DNA of 32,607 nt from an uncultured Bacilli bacterium (GCA_944332555.1 CALVKF010000014.1:1-32607), one strand, 5' to 3'. Shown: positions 1,634 to 15,856, numbered from the stretch's first letter. The notes: generated by a model not told the origin, from the letters alone. Made by a program: numbers and translations.

Positions 1634-3769
1634 ATGAAAATAGATCTACATTGCCATACTTTAAAGACAAAATCTGAAGAATCCGAAAAAAGAAATGTAT
1701 CGATCCAACAATTTAGAGAAAAAATCGAATTAGCCGAAATAAAAATGCTAGCAATTACTAATCACAATTTATTTAATGAAGATAATTATAATTATCTAAG
1801 GGAAAATGTTAAAGATATTTGTCATGTTCTACCGGGAGTTGAACTTGATGTTGAAGGTGAAATTGATAAAAGCCATGGACATATTATATTAGTTTGTTCA
1901 CAAGCAAATGTTAGTAAATTTAAAAATAAGTTGGAATTAATATTAAAAAATTCAACTCCAGACACTTTCATAATTAATACACATGAATTATATAATAATT
2001 TTAAAGATTTAGATATAATATATATTGCACATTTTTTAAAGGATAAACAATTATCGATAAATGACTTAAATGACTTTCAAAATTATATGAATAAACCTTT
2101 AAGATTACTTAAAGAAGCATCAAACATTGTGTCGATTGGCGTATTACAAAGTAATAACCACCGAGCAATGATTGGATCAGATATTATTGATTGGGATGAT
2201 TATGAAAAGTCTAGTTTTGGAGAGTTAAAATTTGAAATATCCGATTTTGATCATCTTCTTAAATTAGTTGATAAAGACAAATTGATAATAGAAGATTTAA
2301 TTAATGAAAATTTAGATGAAAAAATTGTTGTTTATGGAAAAAGTCAAACAAAAGAGTTTCCATTTGAAATACCAATATATGATGATGTTAATATTATTTT
2401 TGGTGATAAAGGTAGTGGTAAATCCGAAATAATTTATTCATTAAAAAATTATTATAATAAAAAAGGATTAAAATGTACTACTTTTTCTGGCGGAGACAAA
2501 GAATCATGGTATACAACAATGAAAAGTATAAAAAGCGAAGAATATGATATAAAAAAATTGGAATTAGATGATAATCTAGAATTTGAATACAAAAATATTA
2601 TAAACTTTTCTGATAAAAATCCAAATTCAATAAAAAATTATTTTAAATATTTTAAAAATTGTTCTACGAATTCTAAAAAGAAAAAAATGAAATGTTTAAA
2701 TATTGAAAAATTCCTTAATTTTTCAGAAGAAAAATATAATTTACTTTATAATGATATAAAAGAAATAGACTATTTTATGAAAAAATTAGATAACTTCGAA
2801 TATACAAAAACACACAAAGATGAAATAGAAAATTTAAAAAAATCATTAAAAAAAACAAGAAGCAATATAATTGATGAATATAAAAAGAATTGGATATATG
2901 AAAATTCCAAACGCTTTGTTGATGATTTTGTAGAAAAAATGAATAAATATGTATCTGAAAACGTTGGGAGTCCCTCTATGCCGACAGACACTGGATTATT
3001 TGATTATATTAAAAATAGAATTGATCTTAAAAATAATTGTTCAAAATTTCTTGAAACTCTAAATTCTAATAAAAAGTCTGAAAGAAAATTTATCGGAAAA
3101 TTAGGATTAAAGGGAGAAGTAAAGATAAAAACAGATTATGAATTTATTAATTCAGAAAACAAGAAAAAAATAAATGCAGCAACATTATCAACTAATAAAA
3201 CTGAGCTTGCAGAAATAATTACAAACATAGAAAAAATTATTGAAAATATATCAAGTAATAAAATTGTTGATTTTATAAAAACAATAAAAGATGATTCTTC
3301 AAAATTAAATATAAATAGTCTGAAAAATTTCATTTCAATCAATAGAGATTTTACAATCAATGATAATCCTTATAAACCATCAAAAGGTGAACTAGCAATA
3401 TTATCATTACAACATGACTTATTAACAAAAAAAGATTACGATATATTTTTAATAGATGAGCCAGAGGCAAATCTTGGCAGTACATATATAAATGATGAAA
3501 TAGTCCCATTATTAAATGAACTAGCACGTTCTAAGAAAAAAATAGTCGTTGCCACTCATGATGCAAATATTGCAATTAGGACAAGACCTTCTTGTTCGAT
3601 TTTAAAAGTAGTAAATAATGATCAATATAAAACTTATATTGGAAATATGTTTACTGATATATTACAAGATATAAATTCTACCAATAAATTAAGTTGGAAA
3701 AATGAAAGTATAAAATATTTAGAAGGTGGAAAAGAAGCATTTGAAGAAAGAAGTGATTTATATGAATAA
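1634..3769 (+). CDS. PHP-domain / SMC-ABC-type ATPase fusion (Ppl/TrlF-like, putative anti-phage)
   Basis: The 711-residue protein opens with a PHP (polymerase and histidinol phosphatase) metal-dependent phosphoesterase domain: DLHCH (residues 4-8) gives the H-x-H motif, with ITNHN, PGVELDVE, HGHIILV and IAHFLK following. From about residue 255 comes an SMC/RecF/ABC-like ATPase: Walker A GDKGSGKS near 257-264, a helical lysine-rich insert (about 340-560), a signature-like region KGELAILSLQHD near 585, Walker B IFLIDEPEANLGS near 604-616 and an H-switch VVATHDAN near 640. This order matches single-gene PHP-ATPase anti-phage proteins (Ppl) and RefSeq's TrlF family. The ribosome binding site is AAAGGAGG. 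It overlaps the next small gene by 8 bases. Nucleic acid as substrate is inferred. Confidence 0.85.
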   Translation: MKIDLHCHTLKTKSEESEKRNVSIQQFREKIELAEIKMLAITNHNLFNEDNYNYLRENVKDICHVLPGVELDVEGEIDKSHGHIILVCSQANVSKFKNKLELILKNSTPDTFIINTHELYNNFKDLDIIYIAHFLKDKQLSINDLNDFQNYMNKPLRLLKEASNIVSIGVLQSNNHRAMIGSDIIDWDDYEKSSFGELKFEISDFDHLLKLVDKDKLIIEDLINENLDEKIVVYGKSQTKEFPFEIPIYDDVNIIFGDKGSGKSEIIYSLKNYYNKKGLKCTTFSGGDKESWYTTMKSIKSEEYDIKKLELDDNLEFEYKNIINFSDKNPNSIKNYFKYFKNCSTNSKKKKMKCLNIEKFLNFSEEKYNLLYNDIKEIDYFMKKLDNFEYTKTHKDEIENLKKSLKKTRSNIIDEYKKNWIYENSKRFVDDFVEKMNKYVSENVGSPSMPTDTGLFDYIKNRIDLKNNCSKFLETLNSNKKSERKFIGKLGLKGEVKIKTDYEFINSENKKKINAATLSTNKTELAEIITNIEKIIENISSNKIVDFIKTIKDDSSKLNINSLKNFISINRDFTINDNPYKPSKGELAILSLQHDLLTKKDYDIFLIDEPEANLGSTYINDEIVPLLNELARSKKKIVVATHDANIAIRTRPSCSILKVVNNDQYKTYIGNMFTDILQDINSTNKLSWKNESIKYLEGGKEAFEERSDLYE

Positions 3770-6723: not shown

Positions 6724-7992
6724 TTATTTACCTTTTAATAATTCATTGATATTTTCTAATCTTGCAAGATTTTTATCATTATAATATTCCGGCAAAACAT
6801 TTTTAATCAATTCTATTAAATCTTCTATCTCATCAACTCTATTATTAATACTATAATAGAAATAATTATTAGAATTTTCTGGAATACATAATCTGCCATA
6901 TTTATCAATAGTATGATAACTTTTAGTCTTAGCATTTTCATATTCTTCTGGTGAATATATAAATTTATGTTCATTTACTTTATCTAACTGTTTATAATCA
7001 GTTATTTTTACTTTAGAAATTATATCTTTAAAAACTTGATAAATAAACTCACAATCAGTATAATAACTATTATTTAATTTATTTCTTTTTTTAATATTTT
7101 GAGCAATTCTATTTATAGTATCAAATGTATTAATATATTCTTTTTCTATTTTAATATCTATACTATTCATTTTAGTTAAATTAATAAACAATATCTTCAA
7201 TAATTTTTGATAATTTTGAAAAAATGATTTTGCTTCTTTTTTTGAAGTATTTTCTAAAAATTCTTTAATAATGTTTTTATTATTATTCCATACCGCTAAT
7301 GTAAGTTTTTTTCCTTCGCTAGTAATAGGAATATAATTAATATCTTTTTCTGTTCCATATAAACTAGAAAAACCAACAATATATTCATTTAGTGTAAGAG
7401 ATAAATTTTTATTATCTGTCATATAACTACAGGGCTCATATACATAATCAATTAAATCTTGATAAGTAATTTTTAAATAATTTTCTTCCCCTTTAAAAGA
7501 TTCATCATTACCTAAACTTAAGTATATATATATCTTTTTATAATTTTTATATTTTTTATCAATATCTTTTTTGTAATCATCACATTGATCATGTTCAAAA
7601 CTATAAAGTTTCGCCTCCAAGGCTATGAGATAATCTTCCCCTTCAGCATTAAACGTTATGATTAAATCTATTCTTCTTCCATTAAATAATACCTCTTGAG
7701 TTCTTACATTAATATTAGATAAATCTGCATTAGAAATACATATTTCTCTAATATTTGGAAATTTATCTTCTATATCTTTACTTGAAATTAATTCGCAAAA
7801 TAAATGTAGTGGATAATCTTGCAGATTATAAGGATTGTTTTCCTTTAATAATGATGCTAAAAAATTGGTATTAGCATCTTCAAAACGAAAAAAATTGATT
7901 TGTTCTAATATACTAGTTTTTTCATAATATTTGGCAAATTCTATCCATTCTTTACTATTTTTAAATTTAATTAATTCATTAAACAAGTTCAT
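6724..7992 (-). CDS. PD-(D/E)XK nuclease superfamily protein
   Basis: A 422-residue protein with a PD-(D/E)XK core: E38 in FRFEDANTNFLASLL, D109 in GRRIDLIITF and E126-x-K128 in LIALEAKLYSFEHDQ. The order and the NTNFLASLLKENNPY opening match the PD-(D/E)XK proteins collected as PDDEXK_4. The remainder is a helical, Lys/Asn-rich region from about residue 240, ending in a short mixed domain. No membrane segment. Its ATG overlaps the 3' end of the upstream RecA-like ATPase gene by 14 bases, so the two are almost certainly made together; an ATPase plus nuclease pair is typical of defence modules. Catalysis is inferred from the intact motif. Confidence 0.8.
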   Translation of the reverse strand: MNLFNELIKFKNSKEWIEFAKYYEKTSILEQINFFRFEDANTNFLASLLKENNPYNLQDYPLHLFCELISSKDIEDKFPNIREICISNADLSNINVRTQEVLFNGRRIDLIITFNAEGEDYLIALEAKLYSFEHDQCDDYKKDIDKKYKNYKKIYIYLSLGNDESFKGEENYLKITYQDLIDYVYEPCSYMTDNKNLSLTLNEYIVGFSSLYGTEKDINYIPITSEGKKLTLAVWNNNKNIIKEFLENTSKKEAKSFFQNYQKLLKILFINLTKMNSIDIKIEKEYINTFDTINRIAQNIKKRNKLNNSYYTDCEFIYQVFKDIISKVKITDYKQLDKVNEHKFIYSPEEYENAKTKSYHTIDKYGRLCIPENSNNYFYYSINNRVDEIEDLIELIKNVLPEYYNDKNLARLENINELLKGK

Positions 7993-8518
7993 CTATATCT
8001 ACCTCTTTTATATTACCATTATCATCTTTATATAAAAATATTACTTTTTGATAATACTTACTAATTTCATTAATATTTAAATCAAGAATAGTAGGTTTTC
8101 TATCTTTCATCAAAGATAACTGAGAAACTAAAATAATTGGTACATCTAATTTTACTGCAATGTCTTTTATTCTTTTAATTTTTTCTATAGTCTCCTTTTC
8201 TTTTGGAGTATCTTTTAACAAAATTAATTGCAAATAATCAATTACAATTAAAGATAATCCATTATTCATTTGATTATACTTTTCACTAATAGAATATATA
8301 TCATCAATAGTTAAGACGTCTGCAATTTTCTTTATAGAATCACTTACTAATCTTTTTTCTAATTGTTCCTTTGAACTTTCTAAACTAAAATATAATATTG
8401 GTTTATCACTTTTTTTAGCAATATCATTAGCTATATTAATAACTAATGTTGTTTTTCCTAAACCAGGTCTACTAGCAATACAAAGGATTGTCCCCTTTTC
8501 TAATGTATCTATATTCAT
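7979..8518 (-). CDS. Stand-alone RecA-like ATPase resembling the DnaB helicase C-terminal core
   Basis: The ATG at 8518 with GGAGGT upstream is preferred over a TTG at 8536, which overlaps that ribosome binding site. The 179-residue protein follows the RecA-type core of the replicative helicase DnaB motif by motif: Walker A ASRPGLGKTT, FSLESSKEQL, LTIDDIYSI, Walker B LSLIVIDYLQLI, VPIILVSQLS and KVIFLYKDD. It lacks the DnaB N-terminal domain and linker, so it is about a third of a normal helicase. It is not the chromosomal helicase. Coupling to the PD-(D/E)XK gene suggests an energy-driven loader or translocator for that nuclease, or a shared regulatory role (inference). Confidence 0.8.
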   Translation of the reverse strand: MNIDTLEKGTILCIASRPGLGKTTLVINIANDIAKKSDKPILYFSLESSKEQLEKRLVSDSIKKIADVLTIDDIYSISEKYNQMNNGLSLIVIDYLQLILLKDTPKEKETIEKIKRIKDIAVKLDVPIILVSQLSLMKDRKPTILDLNINEISKYYQKVIFLYKDDNGNIKEVDIDELV

Positions 8519-8550
8519 TTTATCAATTACCTCCAATTAATTATATTTAT

Positions 8551-8637
8551 TTATGTAAATATGAATAGCCCTCCTACACAGTTGCCAATATTATCAAATC
8601 CTAGATAATCCTTGGTAAGATCTAATACTAAAGGTAT
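8551..8637 (-). other. Possible coding remnant downstream of the NIF3-like gene
   Basis: On the minus strand, after a TGA that overlaps the end of the NIF3-like gene, a frame stays open for about 28 codons to a TAA at 8553-8551 and reads like a protein C-terminus, ending in GFDNIGNCVGGLFIFT. There is no start codon or ribosome binding site. It may be the tail of a decayed gene that once ended this operon, or chance. A short AATAC/GTATT inverted repeat lies near 8624-8637. No clear terminator is present in this 119-base gap. Confidence 0.25.
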
Positions 8638-8978
8638 TATTCAAAATAACTTTCATCTAATAAAGGTATAATATCAATACCAGGTTCTTCGTAAGGGTGA
8701 ACACTCCTTAATTTTGTAAGTACTTCTTTTACCTTTCCAACATCACATATTACCTCTAATTTTTCTTCTTGGACAAATTCTAACTGATTAGATTTTCCAA
8801 TAAAAGGATTAGCTTTTTCATTTGGTTTAAATGTTCCTATACATTTTGTACTCATAGAGCAATGAGTATAATTTCCTATTACTCCTGCTCCAGCATCGCA
8901 AATTACATCTCTAACTTCTTCAACATTTTTAGTAGGTACACTAACAATTATTTTTACTTTATTTATATTAAAATTCAT
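8637..8978 (-). CDS. NIF3/YqfO-like (CutA-fold) small domain protein
   Basis: A 113-residue protein matching the stand-alone form of the domain inserted in YqfO/NIF3 proteins: KIIVSVPTKNVEEVRDVICDAGAGVIGNYTHCS, then GTFKP, and the closing SVHPYEEPGIDIIPL. In NIF3-type proteins this is a PII/CutA-like fold. The single-domain versions have no settled function, so a regulatory or trimerising role is the best guess. Ribosome binding site AGAAGGAG. It is the last intact gene of the AAA+ operon, 11 bases after the HD pseudogene. Nothing is odd about its length. Confidence 0.8.
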   Translation of the reverse strand: MNFNINKVKIIVSVPTKNVEEVRDVICDAGAGVIGNYTHCSMSTKCIGTFKPNEKANPFIGKSNQLEFVQEEKLEVICDVGKVKEVLTKLRSVHPYEEPGIDIIPLLDESYFE

Positions 8979-8989
8979 ATATGCTCCTT

Positions 8990-9621
8990 CTAATTATTAT
9001 CTCTAATATAATTTATTAAAAAAGTTCGCCATTTTAAAGCATCTTCCTCTTCAAATAAATTAAATAAAAAATCTACTACTATCTTTTGTCTTTTAATGGC
9101 TTCTTTTCTACCAGACTTTGTTAACATCATTTTTGGAAGTCTTAATATTTTTTCAAATATATGATTTACTCCACTAGCAGAACCCTTCTTATAATCATCA
9201 ACAGTTAAATTTAGATTAGGGAATGTGTCTTTATCAAAAAATGGTCTATTGTGCTCTTTACTATAAGCATAAGTTCTAAGAATACCTGATGCTCCTAGAG
9301 CATCACACATATCAGCATCTGATACAACTTTTGCTTCAATAGACTCTGGAGTAATACCTGAGATTCTTTTACTATAACCAATTGTAGAGATAGCTTTTAA
9401 TATAATTTCTTTAGTATTATCATCTATATTACATTTGATCATGATTTCTTTAGCATTAGCTAAATTTGTTTCCCCAAATAATTTGTAATTATAATATCTT
9501 TATTAGCGCCTTCGCTATCGGCAAAAATACATGCTAATTTAACAACTCTATTTATATGATCCATTCCAGAATTATCACTAGCAAGTAATTTTTCAACCTC
9601 TTTATATACTTTATCAATCAT
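8990..9621 (-). pseudogene. HD-superfamily hydrolase gene, broken: catalytic HD motif deleted with frameshift
   Basis: The intact start is the ATG at 9621, which overlaps the stop of the preceding gene (ATGATTGA). The first 45 or so codons read MDHINRVVKLACIFADSEGANKDII, the usual first helix (first metal-binding His) of a small HD hydrolase. The frame then runs into a stop. The correct continuation, YKLFGETNLANAKEIMIKCN, resumes in another frame, and the rest (ISTIGYSKR, VSDADMCDALGASGILRTYAY, HNRPFFDK) is well conserved. Between them, about a dozen codons that in relatives carry the LLHD-x-DD motif are missing, and the loss is not a multiple of three. The ATG at 9442 would give only a 150-residue HD-less fragment. 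An assembly fault is possible but would have to delete exactly the active site. Confidence 0.85.
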
Positions 9622-9913
9622 ATAATACTGATTCAATAGCTATATAATCATCATTAATATCATCAACTATTTCAGATATATTAAATTTAGAAAATTTATT
9701 AACTAAATATTCTTTAGTTTTAAAAAACATACCAATTTCATTTATTAATAAATCATCAATTACTTGAATATTTAATTCTTGTAAATACTTTATTACTTCT
9801 AAACAATTAACTTGATCACATTCTAAATCATATAATATATCTTCAGAATTATTATTAATCATTTTTAATATAGTAATATCACTTATTCCTATATCTTTTA
9901 AAAATTGTAACAT
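9614..9913 (-). CDS. Small helical-repeat (mTERF-like solenoid) protein, unknown function
   Basis: 99 residues, entirely helical in appearance, with a periodic pattern: LKDIGISDITILKMINNNSE, then LQELNIQVIDDLLINEIGMF, then VNKFSKFNISEIVDD. The L..LGI....I..LL spacing resembles mTERF-type helical pairs. This is a pattern match by eye, not a firm family call. Its ATG overlaps the stop of the 578-residue gene by one base (TAATG), and its own stop overlaps the start of the HD pseudogene, so it is translated as part of the operon. No charged or catalytic motif is present; binding or scaffolding is the likely kind of role. Confidence 0.6.
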   Translation of the reverse strand: MLQFLKDIGISDITILKMINNNSEDILYDLECDQVNCLEVIKYLQELNIQVIDDLLINEIGMFFKTKEYLVNKFSKFNISEIVDDINDDYIAIESVLYD

Positions 9914-11649
9914 TATCTACCTCTCTTCTCTAAAACTTTTTTAGCACAATCAAATACTAAATTAAATTCTTCTTCATTTAAAATACTATTTTTCGTTAAG
10001 GCATACATTAAAGCTTCAAATTTACCACCTTGGCCATGACGAATTAACAATTCATAATTTCTTAAAACTTTATTTCTAGAAATAATTACTCCATTAAAGT
10101 TATATCTTAAATCATCTATTTTGTAATTTTCTTCTAAAAACTTAATTAATTCATCATTTAGGGCATTAGTCATATTATAATCAAATGTATCTTTTTCTAT
10201 TAATAATCCATAATCTGTAGAAAACTCGGGAATATATTGTTTAACTACTTCACTACCATTAGTAAAATCTATTCCATAACCTTTTTCACTTTCTACAGTA
10301 ATTCTTTTTGGTAGTAAAATGCTCTTTTTAGTTTTTCTAAATACTTGTTCATTTTCCTCTTTAGCTTTATATAAACGATAAAACATTGGAGAATTAGTAG
10401 CTCTAACTAACATTGATGGATTACTACAAGCATATTCATAACCTCCAAGTTCAATAAACATATCCATTGTCTCTAAATTAGTTGTAACTTTAAAAGCACT
10501 TGGAGAATTCAAATAAGATTCCTTAGGAATACCATAAAAATCAAAATCTCTGACACATCTTTTAAGTCTATTAGGATTCATTCGCATTACTTCTTCACAA
10601 CTATCAATAATTTTTAAAACATTAGCCCCTAAAGATTCTAGATAATCATGATTAATAACAAAGTTTTCATAGCGTCCGCCATTATTTTGACCACCACCAC
10701 TAGAACCCCCTGATTTTTTATATCTTCTAAAGGCTCTTTTTCGATTAATAAATATTTCTTGAGCACATAAAACATTTTCAAATACTTCATTTAATGTTTC
10801 ACTAGATTCATTAACAATCATATCTCTTTTTAATAATTCAATAATTGTTGATACATTTTCTTTATTACTATGAATTAATATATTACAAAATTGTTTTTGA
10901 AATCTCTTAATATTAACAAATATATTATTATCTTCTAACAGTTTAAATATTGCATCCATATTTTCTAAAGTTCCGTATCTATATAATAAATTTCTAGTTT
11001 CTTCTTTAATTAAATCAATATTATAGCCATAACTACTAAATAAAGCTTCAACTAAATTACTATCTATATTAGTTTCCTGTGCTATTTCTAATTCTTCATC
11101 TGGAATTTCTTCTAATTCTAATTCATCAACTTTAGATATATTTATTATCGATAATGTACACAGTTCTCCAATTAATTTATTAACCTCAGAAATATCTATA
11201 TACTTATTTAATATTTCAACTAAAATTCTTAAATCTTCACTACTTATATAACTGCCATTATATATTTCTCTAACACTTTCCTCTAAATTTTCTAGTTTCT
11301 TTATTTCGTTATGTAATTTATCTATTTCTTGTTTTTGTTCTTGATATATTTTTTCTATTTTTTCTAAAACACTACTTATTATATTTTTAATTCTTTCTAA
11401 TTCATTATCAGTTATTAAGAAAAATTCTAAACCTAAAGCTTGTTTTAAATATTCTAGATTATCATGTTCAAACTCCGTTATATAATCTTTTATATCTTCC
11501 ATATTAAAATTAAGTAGAGATTGCGGATTATTTAAAATATCTTTTAAATTACTTATTTTAACTTCTAAATCTAAAATAGTTGCAGTATTAATTCTTTCTT
11601 CAATTGCTTGTTTTTCTTCTCTAAATGCTCTAGTTATTAATTCATTCAT
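9913..11649 (-). CDS. Large helical protein with coiled coil and Gly/Ser hinge, unknown function
   Basis: 578 residues, no membrane segments. In order: a helical N-terminus, a coiled-coil stretch near 80-130 (IKNIISSVLEKIEKIYQEQK...), an acidic patch near 185-200 (DELELEEIPDEELE), repeating helical pairs, a basic patch RKRAFRRYKK running into a Gly/Ser/Asn hinge near 310-328, then a C-terminal half with further pairs (LESLGANVLKIIDS, FDFYGIPKESYLNSPSAF, FIELGGYEYACSNPSMLVRA) that resemble mTERF-like repeats of the neighbouring 99-residue protein. It ends in a basic tail (EKRGR). I do not recognise the family. Start and stop each overlap the neighbouring genes by one base (TAATG), so strict coupling and roughly equal output are likely. 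A substrate or scaffold of the operon's AAA+ unfoldase is a guess. Confidence 0.65.
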   Translation of the reverse strand: MNELITRAFREEKQAIEERINTATILDLEVKISNLKDILNNPQSLLNFNMEDIKDYITEFEHDNLEYLKQALGLEFFLITDNELERIKNIISSVLEKIEKIYQEQKQEIDKLHNEIKKLENLEESVREIYNGSYISSEDLRILVEILNKYIDISEVNKLIGELCTLSIINISKVDELELEEIPDEELEIAQETNIDSNLVEALFSSYGYNIDLIKEETRNLLYRYGTLENMDAIFKLLEDNNIFVNIKRFQKQFCNILIHSNKENVSTIIELLKRDMIVNESSETLNEVFENVLCAQEIFINRKRAFRRYKKSGGSSGGGQNNGGRYENFVINHDYLESLGANVLKIIDSCEEVMRMNPNRLKRCVRDFDFYGIPKESYLNSPSAFKVTTNLETMDMFIELGGYEYACSNPSMLVRATNSPMFYRLYKAKEENEQVFRKTKKSILLPKRITVESEKGYGIDFTNGSEVVKQYIPEFSTDYGLLIEKDTFDYNMTNALNDELIKFLEENYKIDDLRYNFNGVIISRNKVLRNYELLIRHGQGGKFEALMYALTKNSILNEEEFNLVFDCAKKVLEKRGR

Positions 11650-13736
11650 TATCTACCACCACCATTTGTTAATAATTCTTCATCATTTCTTTGAATTTTT
11701 ACAATTAAATCTTGCGAATTATTTATTATTTCATCAATTGCTCTAAGTTGAGCCATTCTTAAACTATCAACTGTAATTTCATTTATACCAAACATTCTTT
11801 TTAAATATTCTATTTTTATTTGTTTATCTTTAGTTTTATTATTATATAGTTCTTTTAAATATTCTTCATCAAAATCTGTACCAAATATAGTTAATATCTT
11901 ATTTATTTCTTCAAATTGTACAACAAATTCATTATTGGCTTTATTATAATCCATATTATCCCCAGTCTTATAAAATAAAGTATAAAGTAAATAAACTCTA
12001 TTATTTTTATCATAACCATATTTTTCTTTTAAATATTCCATATTGCTCGGAGATACCCCAACTGTAATAAAACCAAATCGTATATCTCCATTACGTAGTC
12101 TTCTAATAGTATTATTTTCCCATGATTGTTGAATAAATCTATCTGTATTTCCCCAAAATTTCGGAGGTTTTATATCTTCTGTAATCGCAAAAAGAGTATT
12201 AGCATCAGTTAAAGTCATTTTATCTATTGCTGCAGATACTCTAGGTAATGTTTCTTTATAATCATCTTCAACACTAATAGCATTCATATCTTCTAAAATC
12301 TTTTTCCCGTTATAAGGAAAAATTACTATATTATTTAAAGAATTATTAGCATTTTCTAAAGTATTTTTACCATACAATTCTTCTTGCAACTCTGTAACAT
12401 TTTTCTTTATTTCCAAAGTTATTTGTTTTAAATTTTCTAAATACATATTTATATCTCTTTGAACATCTTCTAAACCAAATGAAGAAATATATTCTTCTGC
12501 ATTATTGATTACTTCTCTTAAAAAAGATAATTGTTTATTATATTCTAATATTTTGGCATATAAAGTTACTTCTAACAATGAATAATTTGGACTAATCATT
12601 TTTGCTTCTTCACTTTTGCCTCTAAGTATAGCATCATTCATACTTATTAAAACATTTTTTTCTTTTTCTGGTAAATCTGCAAATCTTTCGGCTTGTTTTA
12701 AAACATAAAATTCAGAATCTTCTATAAAAGTTTTATCTTCTTCACTTAATTTAATTATTTCTTCTTTTTCACTACTTTTTTCAATAGATGCATATACAGT
12801 TATTAAAGATTTAAAAATTTCTATAATTTCTTTTGAATGAGTATTAAAATTTGGTATTAAATATATAGTTAAATCTGTAAGCATTGCTCTTTTTAAATCA
12901 CTTTCAAAACTCCAAGTATCTATATGGTCTTGAACAGTAAAATTATCTTTTAAAAATTCTTTAATTAATTCATTATCACTAACAACCGCAGCAACTTTTA
13001 GCTTCTTATAAATACCGATTATTTGATTTATTACTTCTACTTCATCTTCTTTAGCATTAACTCTTATTTGCTCTAATAACCCTTCGATATCTAGGGTTTC
13101 AACTTCTTTAGTTTGCCTTAATTCTTTAGCAATTACACTTGCTTTAGTTTTTATTTCATCTACAACAATATTTTTCTTAATTTGTTCTTCTCTTTTATAA
13201 AACTTAATATTGTAATCATAAAACTCTAGTATTAATTGTTGTTTAACTAAATGATCTAATTCTACTTCATTTAAAAATTCCATAAATGATGCAAAGTTAT
13301 CACTACTTATTGGCTTAATTATCCTCTCATCATCCATGAGTGCACTATATTCTTCATATGTTTTTATTTGGACTAAAATTGCTTCTTTTTCTGAGTTATT
13401 ATTTTCTCTATTTTTAGCTTGAGTTTCTCTTATTTTATTAACAAATGCCTTAATATAATCACTTATAACTCTTTTCTTTTCATCATCCATTAAATTCCAA
13501 TAAGGATAAATTTTCTTTATTTCATTAATTCGGGACATAGTAAAATCTTCACTTGCCACCAAGCGAATTATAGTTGTAAGAGCTTCATCACTAATTGTTG
13601 TAATATTTTCTTCTAAAGCAGCAATAATATCTTCTAAACCATCATATAATTTATTTCTTTCATCAATTATCTTTAGTTTTTCTGAAAAATCCGCTATTTT
13701 ATCTAATAAATATTTTTTAAACACACCTATATTCAT
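11649..13736 (-). CDS. Very large helical protein of the AAA+ operon, unknown function
   Basis: 695 residues, predicted almost wholly alpha-helical, acidic and lysine-rich, without signal peptide or membrane segment. The N-terminal 500 residues are long helices with coiled-coil character (EKLKIIDERNKLYDGLEDII; ITLEIKKNVTELQEEL). The last 200 look more globular, with PPKFWGNTDRFIQQSW, IRRLRNGDIRFGFITVGVSP and LLYTLFYKTGDN, and the protein ends NGGGR. The family is not recognised. The gene starts one base after the stop of the 148-residue gene (TGATATG) and ends overlapping the start of the 578-residue gene. Size and place suggest a structural or adaptor subunit of a complex with the ClpX-like protein; this is inferred from context only. 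Confidence 0.65.
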   Translation of the reverse strand: MNIGVFKKYLLDKIADFSEKLKIIDERNKLYDGLEDIIAALEENITTISDEALTTIIRLVASEDFTMSRINEIKKIYPYWNLMDDEKKRVISDYIKAFVNKIRETQAKNRENNNSEKEAILVQIKTYEEYSALMDDERIIKPISSDNFASFMEFLNEVELDHLVKQQLILEFYDYNIKFYKREEQIKKNIVVDEIKTKASVIAKELRQTKEVETLDIEGLLEQIRVNAKEDEVEVINQIIGIYKKLKVAAVVSDNELIKEFLKDNFTVQDHIDTWSFESDLKRAMLTDLTIYLIPNFNTHSKEIIEIFKSLITVYASIEKSSEKEEIIKLSEEDKTFIEDSEFYVLKQAERFADLPEKEKNVLISMNDAILRGKSEEAKMISPNYSLLEVTLYAKILEYNKQLSFLREVINNAEEYISSFGLEDVQRDINMYLENLKQITLEIKKNVTELQEELYGKNTLENANNSLNNIVIFPYNGKKILEDMNAISVEDDYKETLPRVSAAIDKMTLTDANTLFAITEDIKPPKFWGNTDRFIQQSWENNTIRRLRNGDIRFGFITVGVSPSNMEYLKEKYGYDKNNRVYLLYTLFYKTGDNMDYNKANNEFVVQFEEINKILTIFGTDFDEEYLKELYNNKTKDKQIKIEYLKRMFGINEITVDSLRMAQLRAIDEIINNSQDLIVKIQRNDEELLTNGGGR

Positions 13737-13737
13737 A

Positions 13738-14184
13738 TCAACGTTCCTTATATTCTTTATTATCTTTAGTTAATTTCAACATTTTTTCATCAAACAATTC
13801 TTCTGCAACACTATAAAAAGTAATATCTTCTCCCAAAATAATTTGAATTTCTGTTATCAACTTTTTAAAATAAGCAATTAAACTAGAAGATATTTCTCCT
13901 TTATCATAAGCTTGTTTCATTAAAATTAATATTTCCCTAACCACTGCATTATTTTGGTTCTCATTTACTTTTTTTAATAAACTTTCAATTTCTAATCCTA
14001 CTCTTTCTTGATCTGTTAGTAATTTATTATTATTAATAATGTATATATCATTTTCATATTTGGTTAAATCATTATCATACAATTTACTTAACACCGAATA
14101 CAAATTATAAATTATCTTCTTATCTGGAAATTTTATTGCATTATCCCTTAATACACTTTTTACATCATCAATATTATAATCCAT
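13738..14184 (-). CDS. Medium helical protein of the AAA+ operon, unknown function
   Basis: 148 residues, soluble, almost all helix, with many Lys, Asn, Asp and Ile. There are no cysteines or catalytic-looking motifs; the sequence ends in a basic tail (KEYKER), as do several operon neighbours. It starts with ATG preceded by AAGGAGATG and lies about 56 bases after the AAA+ gene, and it ends one base before the 695-residue gene. The family is not recognised. It may be an adaptor or small subunit. Confidence 0.6.
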   Translation of the reverse strand: MDYNIDDVKSVLRDNAIKFPDKKIIYNLYSVLSKLYDNDLTKYENDIYIINNNKLLTDQERVGLEIESLLKKVNENQNNAVVREILILMKQAYDKGEISSSLIAYFKKLITEIQIILGEDITFYSVAEELFDEKMLKLTKDNKEYKER

Positions 14185-14240
14185 AACGCATCTCCTTAAC
14201 TACTCTAATTGTATCATAAAATGCATTAAAAAAGAAGAAG

Positions 14241-15476
14241 TTATCTTCTAATTCTCTTAAAAGTATTACCAGTAATTTCTAACACTATTTCTTTATCTAA
14301 ATAAATTGTGTCAGATGAACTTCTTAAAATCTCTTTTAAATATTTTGTTCTAATACTATTTACAATTGTCTGTAAACTTCTGGCTCCAGTTTTTAATTTA
14401 TATGCTTCATCAACAATTATTTCTAAAACTCCCTCGCCAATTACTAATTTTTTGCCATTATTTTCCACTAATTCTGCAAAAGTTTTTAAAGGACTAATTG
14501 ATGATTCAGTTAAGATTTTGTATAAATCTTCTTTAGTATAATCATTAGTATGTAAATAAGTATTAAATCTTCCCACTAATTCGCGTTCTAAACCTATTCT
14601 CACTAAATCATCGGGAGTTATTTCATAAGAATCATGAGTACTTTCAAATACTCTTTCAAAACCTATTGGATTTGATACATTAGTCTTGGCATCTCTTAAT
14701 TCTGATAAAGAACCAAGACAAACAAAAGTAATTTTTGATGTATCAAACTCAATGTTTTTTTCGGTTGAACTCGGATTTATAAAATATTTTCCACCCCCTA
14801 AAAAGTCTAGAAGTTGTTGTTGTACTGCTTTTTTCATTTCGAAATTATTACCCTTAATTGCTAATTTATCAAACTCATCAAAAACAATTATACCTCTCTC
14901 AGCCTTTTCTAAATTACCATGAGCATTATTATATAAACTAACTAAAGTATCAGTTATATTACCTCCGACATAACCCGTTGCTGAATAATTGGTAATTGAT
15001 GAAGCCGCAAAAGGAACATTTAATCCACTTGAAATAGCACTAGTTATAGTTGTTTTACCCGTTCCTGTTGAACCATCAAGAAAAATAATAGAACGACTAG
15101 AAGCATCCCCATTATTAAGAGCAATAGATAAATTATTAACAATATTATAAAATAAATTTTCAGCTAATTCTTCTTGACCAACAAATCTTTTCTTGATATC
15201 TTCTAACAAAGTCCATAATTTATCACTATTTAAACTAATATAATTTTTCTTTTCTAAAAGCACTAAATCTGTAATTGTTGATGCTTCTTCATGAGCCATT
15301 TCATCAAGCACTTTTAAACTTCCATTTTTAAGAGCATAATTATAGGCATCATCAAAACTTTTATGATATTTAAAGCTACTTAAATATGGCATAAATTTTT
15401 GAGCAAAAGCATCTAATATTTTGGTATTACCCCAAAATATTTCATAAAATAAACCATAAAGAACTTCAGAACTCAT
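14241..15476 (-). CDS. ClpX-like AAA+ unfoldase (N-terminal domain probably cut off by a frameshift)
   Basis: 411 residues from the first in-frame ATG. Motifs: VGQEELAENL before the P-loop, Walker A GSTGTGKT (135-142), GYVG pore loop (169-172), Walker B GIIVFDEFDKL (195-205), IGF tripeptide at 271-273 at the place where ClpX has its ClpP-docking loop, arginine-finger region ELVGRFN (R303) and sensor 2 GARSL (R366). That order is ClpX/HslU, not generic AAA+. The ClpX zinc-binding N-domain is absent. The same frame stays open for about 40 codons upstream of this ATG (protein-like KSDDIKILEEKEIIEIYKKY) but has no start codon, and no ribosome binding site precedes the ATG, so the true gene probably begins at 15856 with one base lost near 15589. 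Expected role: ATP-driven unfolding of a specific partner, possibly feeding a ClpP peptidase. Confidence 0.85.
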   Translation of the reverse strand: MSSEVLYGLFYEIFWGNTKILDAFAQKFMPYLSSFKYHKSFDDAYNYALKNGSLKVLDEMAHEEASTITDLVLLEKKNYISLNSDKLWTLLEDIKKRFVGQEELAENLFYNIVNNLSIALNNGDASSRSIIFLDGSTGTGKTTITSAISSGLNVPFAASSITNYSATGYVGGNITDTLVSLYNNAHGNLEKAERGIIVFDEFDKLAIKGNNFEMKKAVQQQLLDFLGGGKYFINPSSTEKNIEFDTSKITFVCLGSLSELRDAKTNVSNPIGFERVFESTHDSYEITPDDLVRIGLERELVGRFNTYLHTNDYTKEDLYKILTESSISPLKTFAELVENNGKKLVIGEGVLEIIVDEAYKLKTGARSLQTIVNSIRTKYLKEILRSSSDTIYLDKEIVLEITGNTFKRIRR

Positions 15477-15586
15477 AAATTTAATTTCTTCTGATTTATT
15501 AGAAATTTTAGCTATTATAATTTGATAATATTTTTTATAAATTTCAATAATTTCTTTCTCTTCTAATATTTTAATATCATCACTCT

Positions 15587-15856
15587 TTAAACAAACAAAT
15601 CCAATAAATCAACAATATTTAAATCCTTATAAGATGTTAATTTTGCTGCCCAACTATTATCCGCAAGGAAAAATGCTAAATATAGGGCATAAGCAAACTT
15701 TTCTTCACTATCATAAGAATCTATTACAGCAGTTCTTATAGTATCTTTAATGTTATTTGATTTATTTAACATAGTTTGATAAAGAGAACAAGCATATTTC
15801 ATAAGTTCTTTAGTTCCTAAACTTAAATTTTTGTAACTATATAATTCTATATTCAT
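15587..15856 (-). CDS. N-terminal domain of the AAA+ protein, separated by a probable one-base frameshift
   Basis: The 89-residue frame starts at an ATG with GGAAGTG upstream and a TATAAT-like box about 30 bases before it. The product is a helical domain (LGTKELMKYACSLYQTMLNK; EKFAYALYLAFFLADNSWAA) ending DLLDLFV at a TAA. Inserting one T in the TTT before that TAA joins it to the open frame of the ClpX-like gene (DLFV-LKSDDIKILEE), giving one protein of about 538 residues. I infer that the two were, or in relatives still are, one gene. Explanations are mutation, assembly or sequencing error; the site is not a classical -1 slippery heptamer. As a separate protein it would be a small helical domain of unknown function. 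Confidence 0.65.
   Translation of the reverse strand: MNIELYSYKNLSLGTKELMKYACSLYQTMLNKSNNIKDTIRTAVIDSYDSEEKFAYALYLAFFLADNSWAAKLTSYKDLNIVDLLDLFV

Follow-up and report, generated by a model that had tools for sequence, protein, structure and literature searches.

Within a 32,607-nucleotide (nt) stretch of DNA, here called the window, from the genome of an uncultured Bacilli bacterium lies a conserved unit of four genes, A, B, C and D, which is reduced to B–C in many relatives. Protein B ends in a predicted domain of the RelE/HigB (BECR) fold, and protein C is predicted to contain a solenoid of mTERF-type repeats. Of this anatomy, meaning the gene order, the coupling and the folds, we are highly confident. 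As to its role, we favour, at a probability of roughly 0.4, an oversized toxin–antitoxin-like module, in which the RelE-type domain of B would be the effector and the acidic proteins C, D and A its partners. The parts have known folds; their combination and scale are new.

The source genome comprises 1.3 Mb in 64 contigs, and the window has a GC content of 24%. In the open reading frame (ORF) map, A, B, C and D run head to tail on the minus strand from 14184 to 9614 (Table 1), with TAATG at both the B/C and the C/D junctions and 1 nt between the stop of A and the start of B. A preliminary description of this DNA, made from the sequence alone, had such junctions almost throughout a series that began with a ClpX-like gene 5′ of A; they hold for A/B, B/C and C/D and fail between the ClpX-like gene and A, where 56 nt intervene. 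Its suggestion that the coupling reflects a complex of fixed stoichiometry is plausible in view of the tight junctions and the recurring gene order. A match of the helical proteins to a known family with an assigned role was to count against that description, and in part it does. At the level of fold, B and C find known counterparts; no A, B, C or D protein of the window has a match above noise in Pfam, NCBIfam or PADLOC, and the best PHROGs match of the A–D genes is at 0.0038.

The AlphaFold2 model of B (11-row alignment, predicted local distance difference test (pLDDT) score of 80.8, predicted template modelling (pTM) score of 0.39) consists of helices as far as about residue 465 and is alpha/beta beyond. 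The three proteins of 148, 695 and 578 residues described earlier as all-helical are thus correct as ORFs, but the 695-residue protein is not all-helical, its C-terminus being predicted to form an alpha/beta domain with the RelE/HigB fold. In VIA-align, HigB structures 6af3 and 6af4 superpose on B with a Z-score of 8.6 (108–112 residues, 3.3–3.7 Å), the 6af3 alignment spanning 108 of 114 residues, and over a dozen other rows (RelE, YoeB, YafQ, HigB2 and ParE), as well as Cami1, fall on residues 467–615. Unrelated helical rows for the middle part of B score slightly above these RelE/HigB rows.

Sequence profiles point in the same direction. A 347-amino acid (aa) homologue of B, at locus L086, matches the Pfam family Gp49 at 2.3e-5 (24.8 bits, over the curated cut-off of 23.9); Gp49 is matched by 4 of 39 B proteins, and ParE_toxin weakly by two. 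In 117 genomes searched, Gp49 matched six genes: three are B genes beside C (genomes G116, G118 and G084) and a fourth (G092) is a classical HigB-like gene, whose next gene encodes, as judged by eye, a helix-turn-helix (HTH) protein. The only PDB match of this classical gene is 6af3, the structure that also heads the RelE/HigB rows for B. Aligned with it as profiles, the small B proteins give an E-value of 8.7e-4 and the full B set, led by the B of the window, 0.0072 in unchanged register, both at low hhalign probability and against a single-sequence target. Near-invariant in B are an arginine in an [IV]RxxF strand and one or two lysines after the next strand, equivalent to R553 and K590 in the window. 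PDB sequence searches with the B, C and D profiles returned no related chain. B-like genes with a Gp49-type end were seen at L141:331–1875 and L140:472–1887 with no C immediately adjacent, one directly 3′ of a sigma-factor-like gene and the other 5′ of a tyrosyl-tRNA synthetase-like gene.

In the model of C (pLDDT 85.7, pTM 0.62), an N-terminal helical bundle (residues 1–180) precedes a solenoid in which longer helices alternate with short ones (residues 190–470), which is followed by a C-terminal domain containing the motif YNFNGVIISRxKVLR. All 12 of the top PDB rows in the fold search are of mTERF type (MTERF1 with a Z-score of 11.8, MTERF3 9.3 and MTERF4 9.1), and since for repeats a Z-score below about 13 can reflect a common arrangement, it is on the unanimity of these rows that C is called mTERF-like. 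A Tetrahymena mitoribosome chain is among the top rows; transcription activator-like effectors (TALEs) rank lower. No C member matches the mTERF sequence profile PF02536, two D members match it weakly (best 0.017), and the profiles of C and D find no mTERF chain in the PDB. In profile alignment, C pairs at 2e-5 with a protein of 31-aa tandem repeats from a related genome, and at 2e-4 with D; by this comparison D, the 99-residue protein already described as solenoid-like, is a small relative of C. Both families are acidic (median isoelectric point (pI) 5.3 for C and 4.4 for D). The C of the window has a pI of 4.9, and the net charge of its solenoid is 0, so strong DNA binding by C is not favoured.

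Two adjacent ORFs on the minus strand of contig 7 of genome G123 (L122:4102–6576 and L122:6637–9576, 824 and 979 aa) are made up of a 31-aa unit (ESKGLLELVKTCPTILAQGKSQEIEKILTLL) repeated in tandem and in exact register; a few positions vary, one of them right before the GK step. They resemble long arrays of the pTERF or TALE kind. Of the 288 genomes of the order, about nine encode related proteins, among them a 1147-aa open frame in G294.

Searches for C were made with profiles of five and of 28 rows. In the sample of 288 genomes of the order, the former found C in at least 49 and the latter in at least 65, both lower bounds because only a few candidates were scored per genome. Matches to the larger profile cover 36 of 102 genera, every one within a single family of uncultured Bacilli. 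Outside that family there was no convincing match in the class (296 genomes) or phylum (295 genomes) samples, the single class-level match, at 7e-4, probably being due to chance. Presence is patchy, with 4 of 30 genomes of the window's genus known to carry the unit (G000, G013, G017 and G022), and insertion sites vary between genera.

Comparison of about 60 loci places B 5′ of C on the same strand, usually overlapping or within a few bases. In the fuller form D lies 3′ of C, usually at −4 to +3 nt; in some groups an ORF of 64–78 aa sits between B and C; and the minimal form consists of a B of about 300–350 aa and a C of about 600 aa, with neither A nor D. Because the gene order is kept at most of these loci, it is not a product of chance. 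Ratios of non-synonymous to synonymous substitution of 0.04–0.27 in close pairs indicate purifying selection on all four genes. Tandem duplications of B–C or C–C within one locus were observed at L111, L123, L132 and L134, which suggests side-by-side diversification of the copies.

The unit has also moved between genomes. From about 7979 to 14200, the window, G013 and G022 are mostly 98–100% identical, and identity is lower in the flanks, to which the ClpX-like gene belongs. In the comparison of the window with G022, synonymous divergence is 0.02–0.1 for A–C and 0 for D, compared with 0.4–0.6 for flanking genes and 0.22 for the ClpX-like gene; the block was therefore exchanged recently as a unit, with no matching signal in the ClpX-like gene. 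Exchange is also suggested in genus g81, where the synonymous divergence of A, B and C exceeds that of the adjacent rpiB, spoIID and M23 genes.

Taken together, the RelE-type end on a helical arm, the coupled acidic partner, the position of the toxin-like gene first, the patchiness and the exchange resemble a scaled-up toxin–antitoxin module. The translationally coupled two-gene core of type II systems is found in B–C, and the BECR toxin fold in B. Cleavage of mRNA on the ribosome by RelE-type proteins is known for the superfamily (PMC2807027; PMC11980606). In the mechanism that we propose, a long helical arm in B would bear its RelE/HigB-fold domain; C, translated from the overlapping start codon, would bind B and hold that domain off its target, and the small acidic D, together with A, would complete the complex. 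Disturbance of the complex would then let B cut mRNA at the ribosomal A site, bringing translation to a halt. The RNase activity of B, its neutralization by C, D and A, the trigger and any binding of nucleic acid by C are inferred.

Several observations weigh against this reading. With lengths of about 300–700 aa, compared with about 100 aa for a toxin, B is no small single-domain protein. The Z-scores of the RelE-type match are only middling, so that the support from sequence matters; Foldseek alone gave no significant match for B or for C, the fold assignments coming from the second look with VIA-align and, for B, additionally from Pfam. The arginine and lysine may correspond to the catalytic basic residues of RelE-type enzymes, an equivalence drawn by alignment alone. 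Pfam finds no ribbon-helix-helix (RHH), HTH, AbrB or Phd antitoxin domain in the C or D families (a stray PrlF match, at 7e-4, involves one among 28 C proteins). The two remaining Gp49 matches, in G031 and G107, are B-like genes without an adjoining C, and the neighbours tallied over many loci (111 in all) belong mostly to core families, including tRNA ligases, sigma factors and RNase III, and not to mobile or defence genes.

Such surroundings, to which murA can be added, also tell against an anti-phage sensor–effector, in which the C solenoid, with D, would recognize an invader's nucleic acid or protein and free the RNase of B to abort infection. Patchy presence and exchange would suit this reading, as would two PADLOC candidate defence families near the unit in the window (PDC-S26 at 1e-18 and PDC-M49A at 1e-31, in genes 6724–7992 and 1634–3769) and an nSTAND protein near it in L021, and multidomain toxins of the RelE/ParE superfamily have been argued to act in phage defence (PMC11980606). 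Few of the 111 neighbours match PADLOC strongly, however, no relative was found in viral contigs, and the C protein of the window has none in phage records; we regard the reading as unlikely. A core setting would suit a lineage-specific, non-toxic factor in translation or RNA metabolism, with C binding rRNA or mRNA in the manner of organellar mTERF proteins and the RelE-fold domain of B docking C on the ribosome. The fold matches of C include structures of MTERF4 on the mitoribosome, its site of action; the unit lies, as judged by eye, just 5′ of rpsO and pnp in L063 and L064; and purifying selection acts on all genes. Presence in about a quarter of the sampled order (at least 65 of 288 genomes) and in 4 of 30 genomes of the genus, together with exchange, is nevertheless unlike a housekeeping factor, and this explanation seems no more probable than defence. 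Less likely still is a new class of multi-subunit RNase system of uncultured Bacilli, in which a C solenoid that reads nucleic acid in the manner of mTERF proteins or TALEs would address the ribosome-directed RelE-type effector B, so that a specific sequence or an invader would prompt the cutting of translation. Similarly improbable is a RelE-fold domain without catalytic activity, or of a gyrase-type (ParE-like) kind, whose only part in a helical complex would be structural or in binding: its strong divergence, with the few Gp49 and weak ParE_toxin matches, would fit, but the arginine and lysine are near-invariant at matching positions across very divergent members.

Least probable, and largely refuted, is the AAA+ machine of the preliminary description, driven by ClpX with three helical partners. 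The neighbouring gene does encode a ClpX-type protein, with Walker A and Walker B motifs and the IGF tripeptide, and ClpP is present in the source genome. In the window, however, the gene is not intact: the protein has 538 aa in two relatives, and a single A missing near 15597, perhaps through an assembly error, leaves ORFs 15587–15856 (89 aa) and 14241–15476 (411 aa). Among the loci compared, the gene adjoins the unit only in the window, L017 and L018, both relatives being near-identical, and in G011 and G019 it occurs at loci without A–D. The 56 nt between its stop and the start of A hold a hairpin (−4.5 kcal/mol, overlapping the ClpX-like stop codon) with a T run, and then an extended −10 box, TGATACAAT; a generic consensus scan for promoters and terminators called neither. 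By eye, hairpin, T run and a similar box recur in this order 5′ of A in L023, L024 and L061, and L021, L022 and L062 have only such a box there. Gene order, these intergenic signals and the identity profile, which leaves the frameshifted gene outside the exchanged block, rule it out as a member of the unit. The ClpX-like protein lacks the zinc domain, as first described, and has an N-terminal region of its own, its IGF tripeptide being of the kind used for ClpP docking; a search of the source genome with it found no second ClpX.

Table 1. Features of the window discussed in the text (all on the minus strand).
Feature	Coordinates	Strand	Remarks
Gene A	13738..14184	-	148 aa, acidic; first in the unit; profile-matched at 12 loci; absent from the minimal B–C form
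Gene B	11649..13736	-	695 aa; long helical part, then predicted C-terminal RelE/HigB-fold domain
RelE/HigB-fold (BECR) domain of B, predicted	11892..12338	-	Residues 467–615; conserved R553 and K590
Gene C	9913..11649	-	578 aa; N-terminal helical bundle, mTERF-like solenoid, conserved C-terminal domain (modelled)
mTERF-like solenoid of C, predicted	10240..11082	-	Residues 190–470
Motif YNFNGVIISRxKVLR of C	10060..10104	-	Residues 516–530; conserved
Gene D	9614..9913	-	99 aa, very acidic; related to repeats of C
Extended −10 promoter-like box TGATACAAT	14208..14216	-	5′ of A; read by eye and by locus comparison
Terminator-like hairpin with T run	14228..14248	-	At the end of the ClpX-like gene; by eye and by locus comparison
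ClpX-like gene	14241..15856	-	1-nt deletion giving ORFs of 89 and 411 aa; neighbour outside the unit
Exchanged block	7979..14200	-	98–100% identity across three genomes; A–D, HD, NIF3-like and DnaB-like genes

An HD-type gene lies 3′ of the unit (8990–9442), as first described, but in a shortened copy: relative to two otherwise near-identical relatives it has deletions of 31 and 6 nt, and its product has 150 aa instead of 227 aa. As read by eye, the deletions take out the region of the HD-type motif, so the source genome probably encodes a dead enzyme. Further away, one ORF (169–1422) joins, as read by eye, a phosphoglycerate-mutase-like N-terminal half to a C-terminal half like type I restriction specificity proteins, possibly a fusion or an assembly join. 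Three wider associations were considered and dropped: with defence islands, hinted at by the window and L021, given the mostly core neighbours; with sporulation, as spoIID and M23 genes adjoin the unit in one genus and three neighbours gave SigF/SigG-family matches, but BLAST showed no general pattern; and with phage, for the C protein of the window has no match in phage records or viral contigs. In one genus, murA, spoIID and mreB adjoin the unit.

With the type II systems HigBA and RelBE (RelE/ParE superfamily, BECR fold; Gp49 is PF05973), the unit would share the fold of B and its conserved arginine and lysine; with higBA, it shares a toxin-like gene 5′ of its partner, translational coupling, patchiness and exchange. 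It differs in that B is 3–7 times the length of a toxin, that C is an mTERF-like protein of 500–800 aa with no HTH or RHH antitoxin, and that up to four genes are involved. Organelles are the best-known setting of mTERF proteins, and we know of no role for prokaryotic relatives. The predicted solenoid of C resembles MTERF1, MTERF3 and MTERF4 over about 235 residues (Z-score up to 11.8); unlike them, C is bacterial, acidic and without significant sequence match, has extra N- and C-terminal domains and is coupled to a RelE-fold protein. Also comparable are the pTERF proteins described in 2024, prokaryotic mTERF-like DNA-binding tandem repeat proteins from metagenome-assembled genomes, mostly of Bacillota, for which the accessible part of the report gives neither an operon context, with a RelE-fold protein or otherwise, nor an established role (PMC11417379). 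The C profile aligns with the 31-aa tandem array of a related genome, and the repeats of C differ in being degenerate and accompanied by added domains.

A RelE-fold domain ending a larger, regulated protein is familiar from Cami1 (8phb) and other multidomain RelE-type effectors (PMC11980606); no CRISPR-type sensing domain is seen in B, whose partner is mTERF-like. The ClpX-type AAA+ protein with its IGF tripeptide is a likeness to ClpX in a neighbour, not in the conserved unit. A 2025 survey of multidomain proteins of the RelE/ParE superfamily does not mention mTERF (PMC11980606). Coupling between a RelE-fold protein and an mTERF-like one is not described in the papers searched, the libraries being partial and an earlier description elsewhere possible, and the layout was, as first described, new to them. 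Among the genomes sampled from an order of uncultured Bacilli, at least one in five has a bacterial mTERF-like protein beside a RelE-type effector candidate. If confirmed, this association would provide a testable function for bacterial mTERF-like proteins, would extend RelE-superfamily systems to giant multi-gene forms, and would allow four families of ‘hypothetical’ proteins to be annotated.

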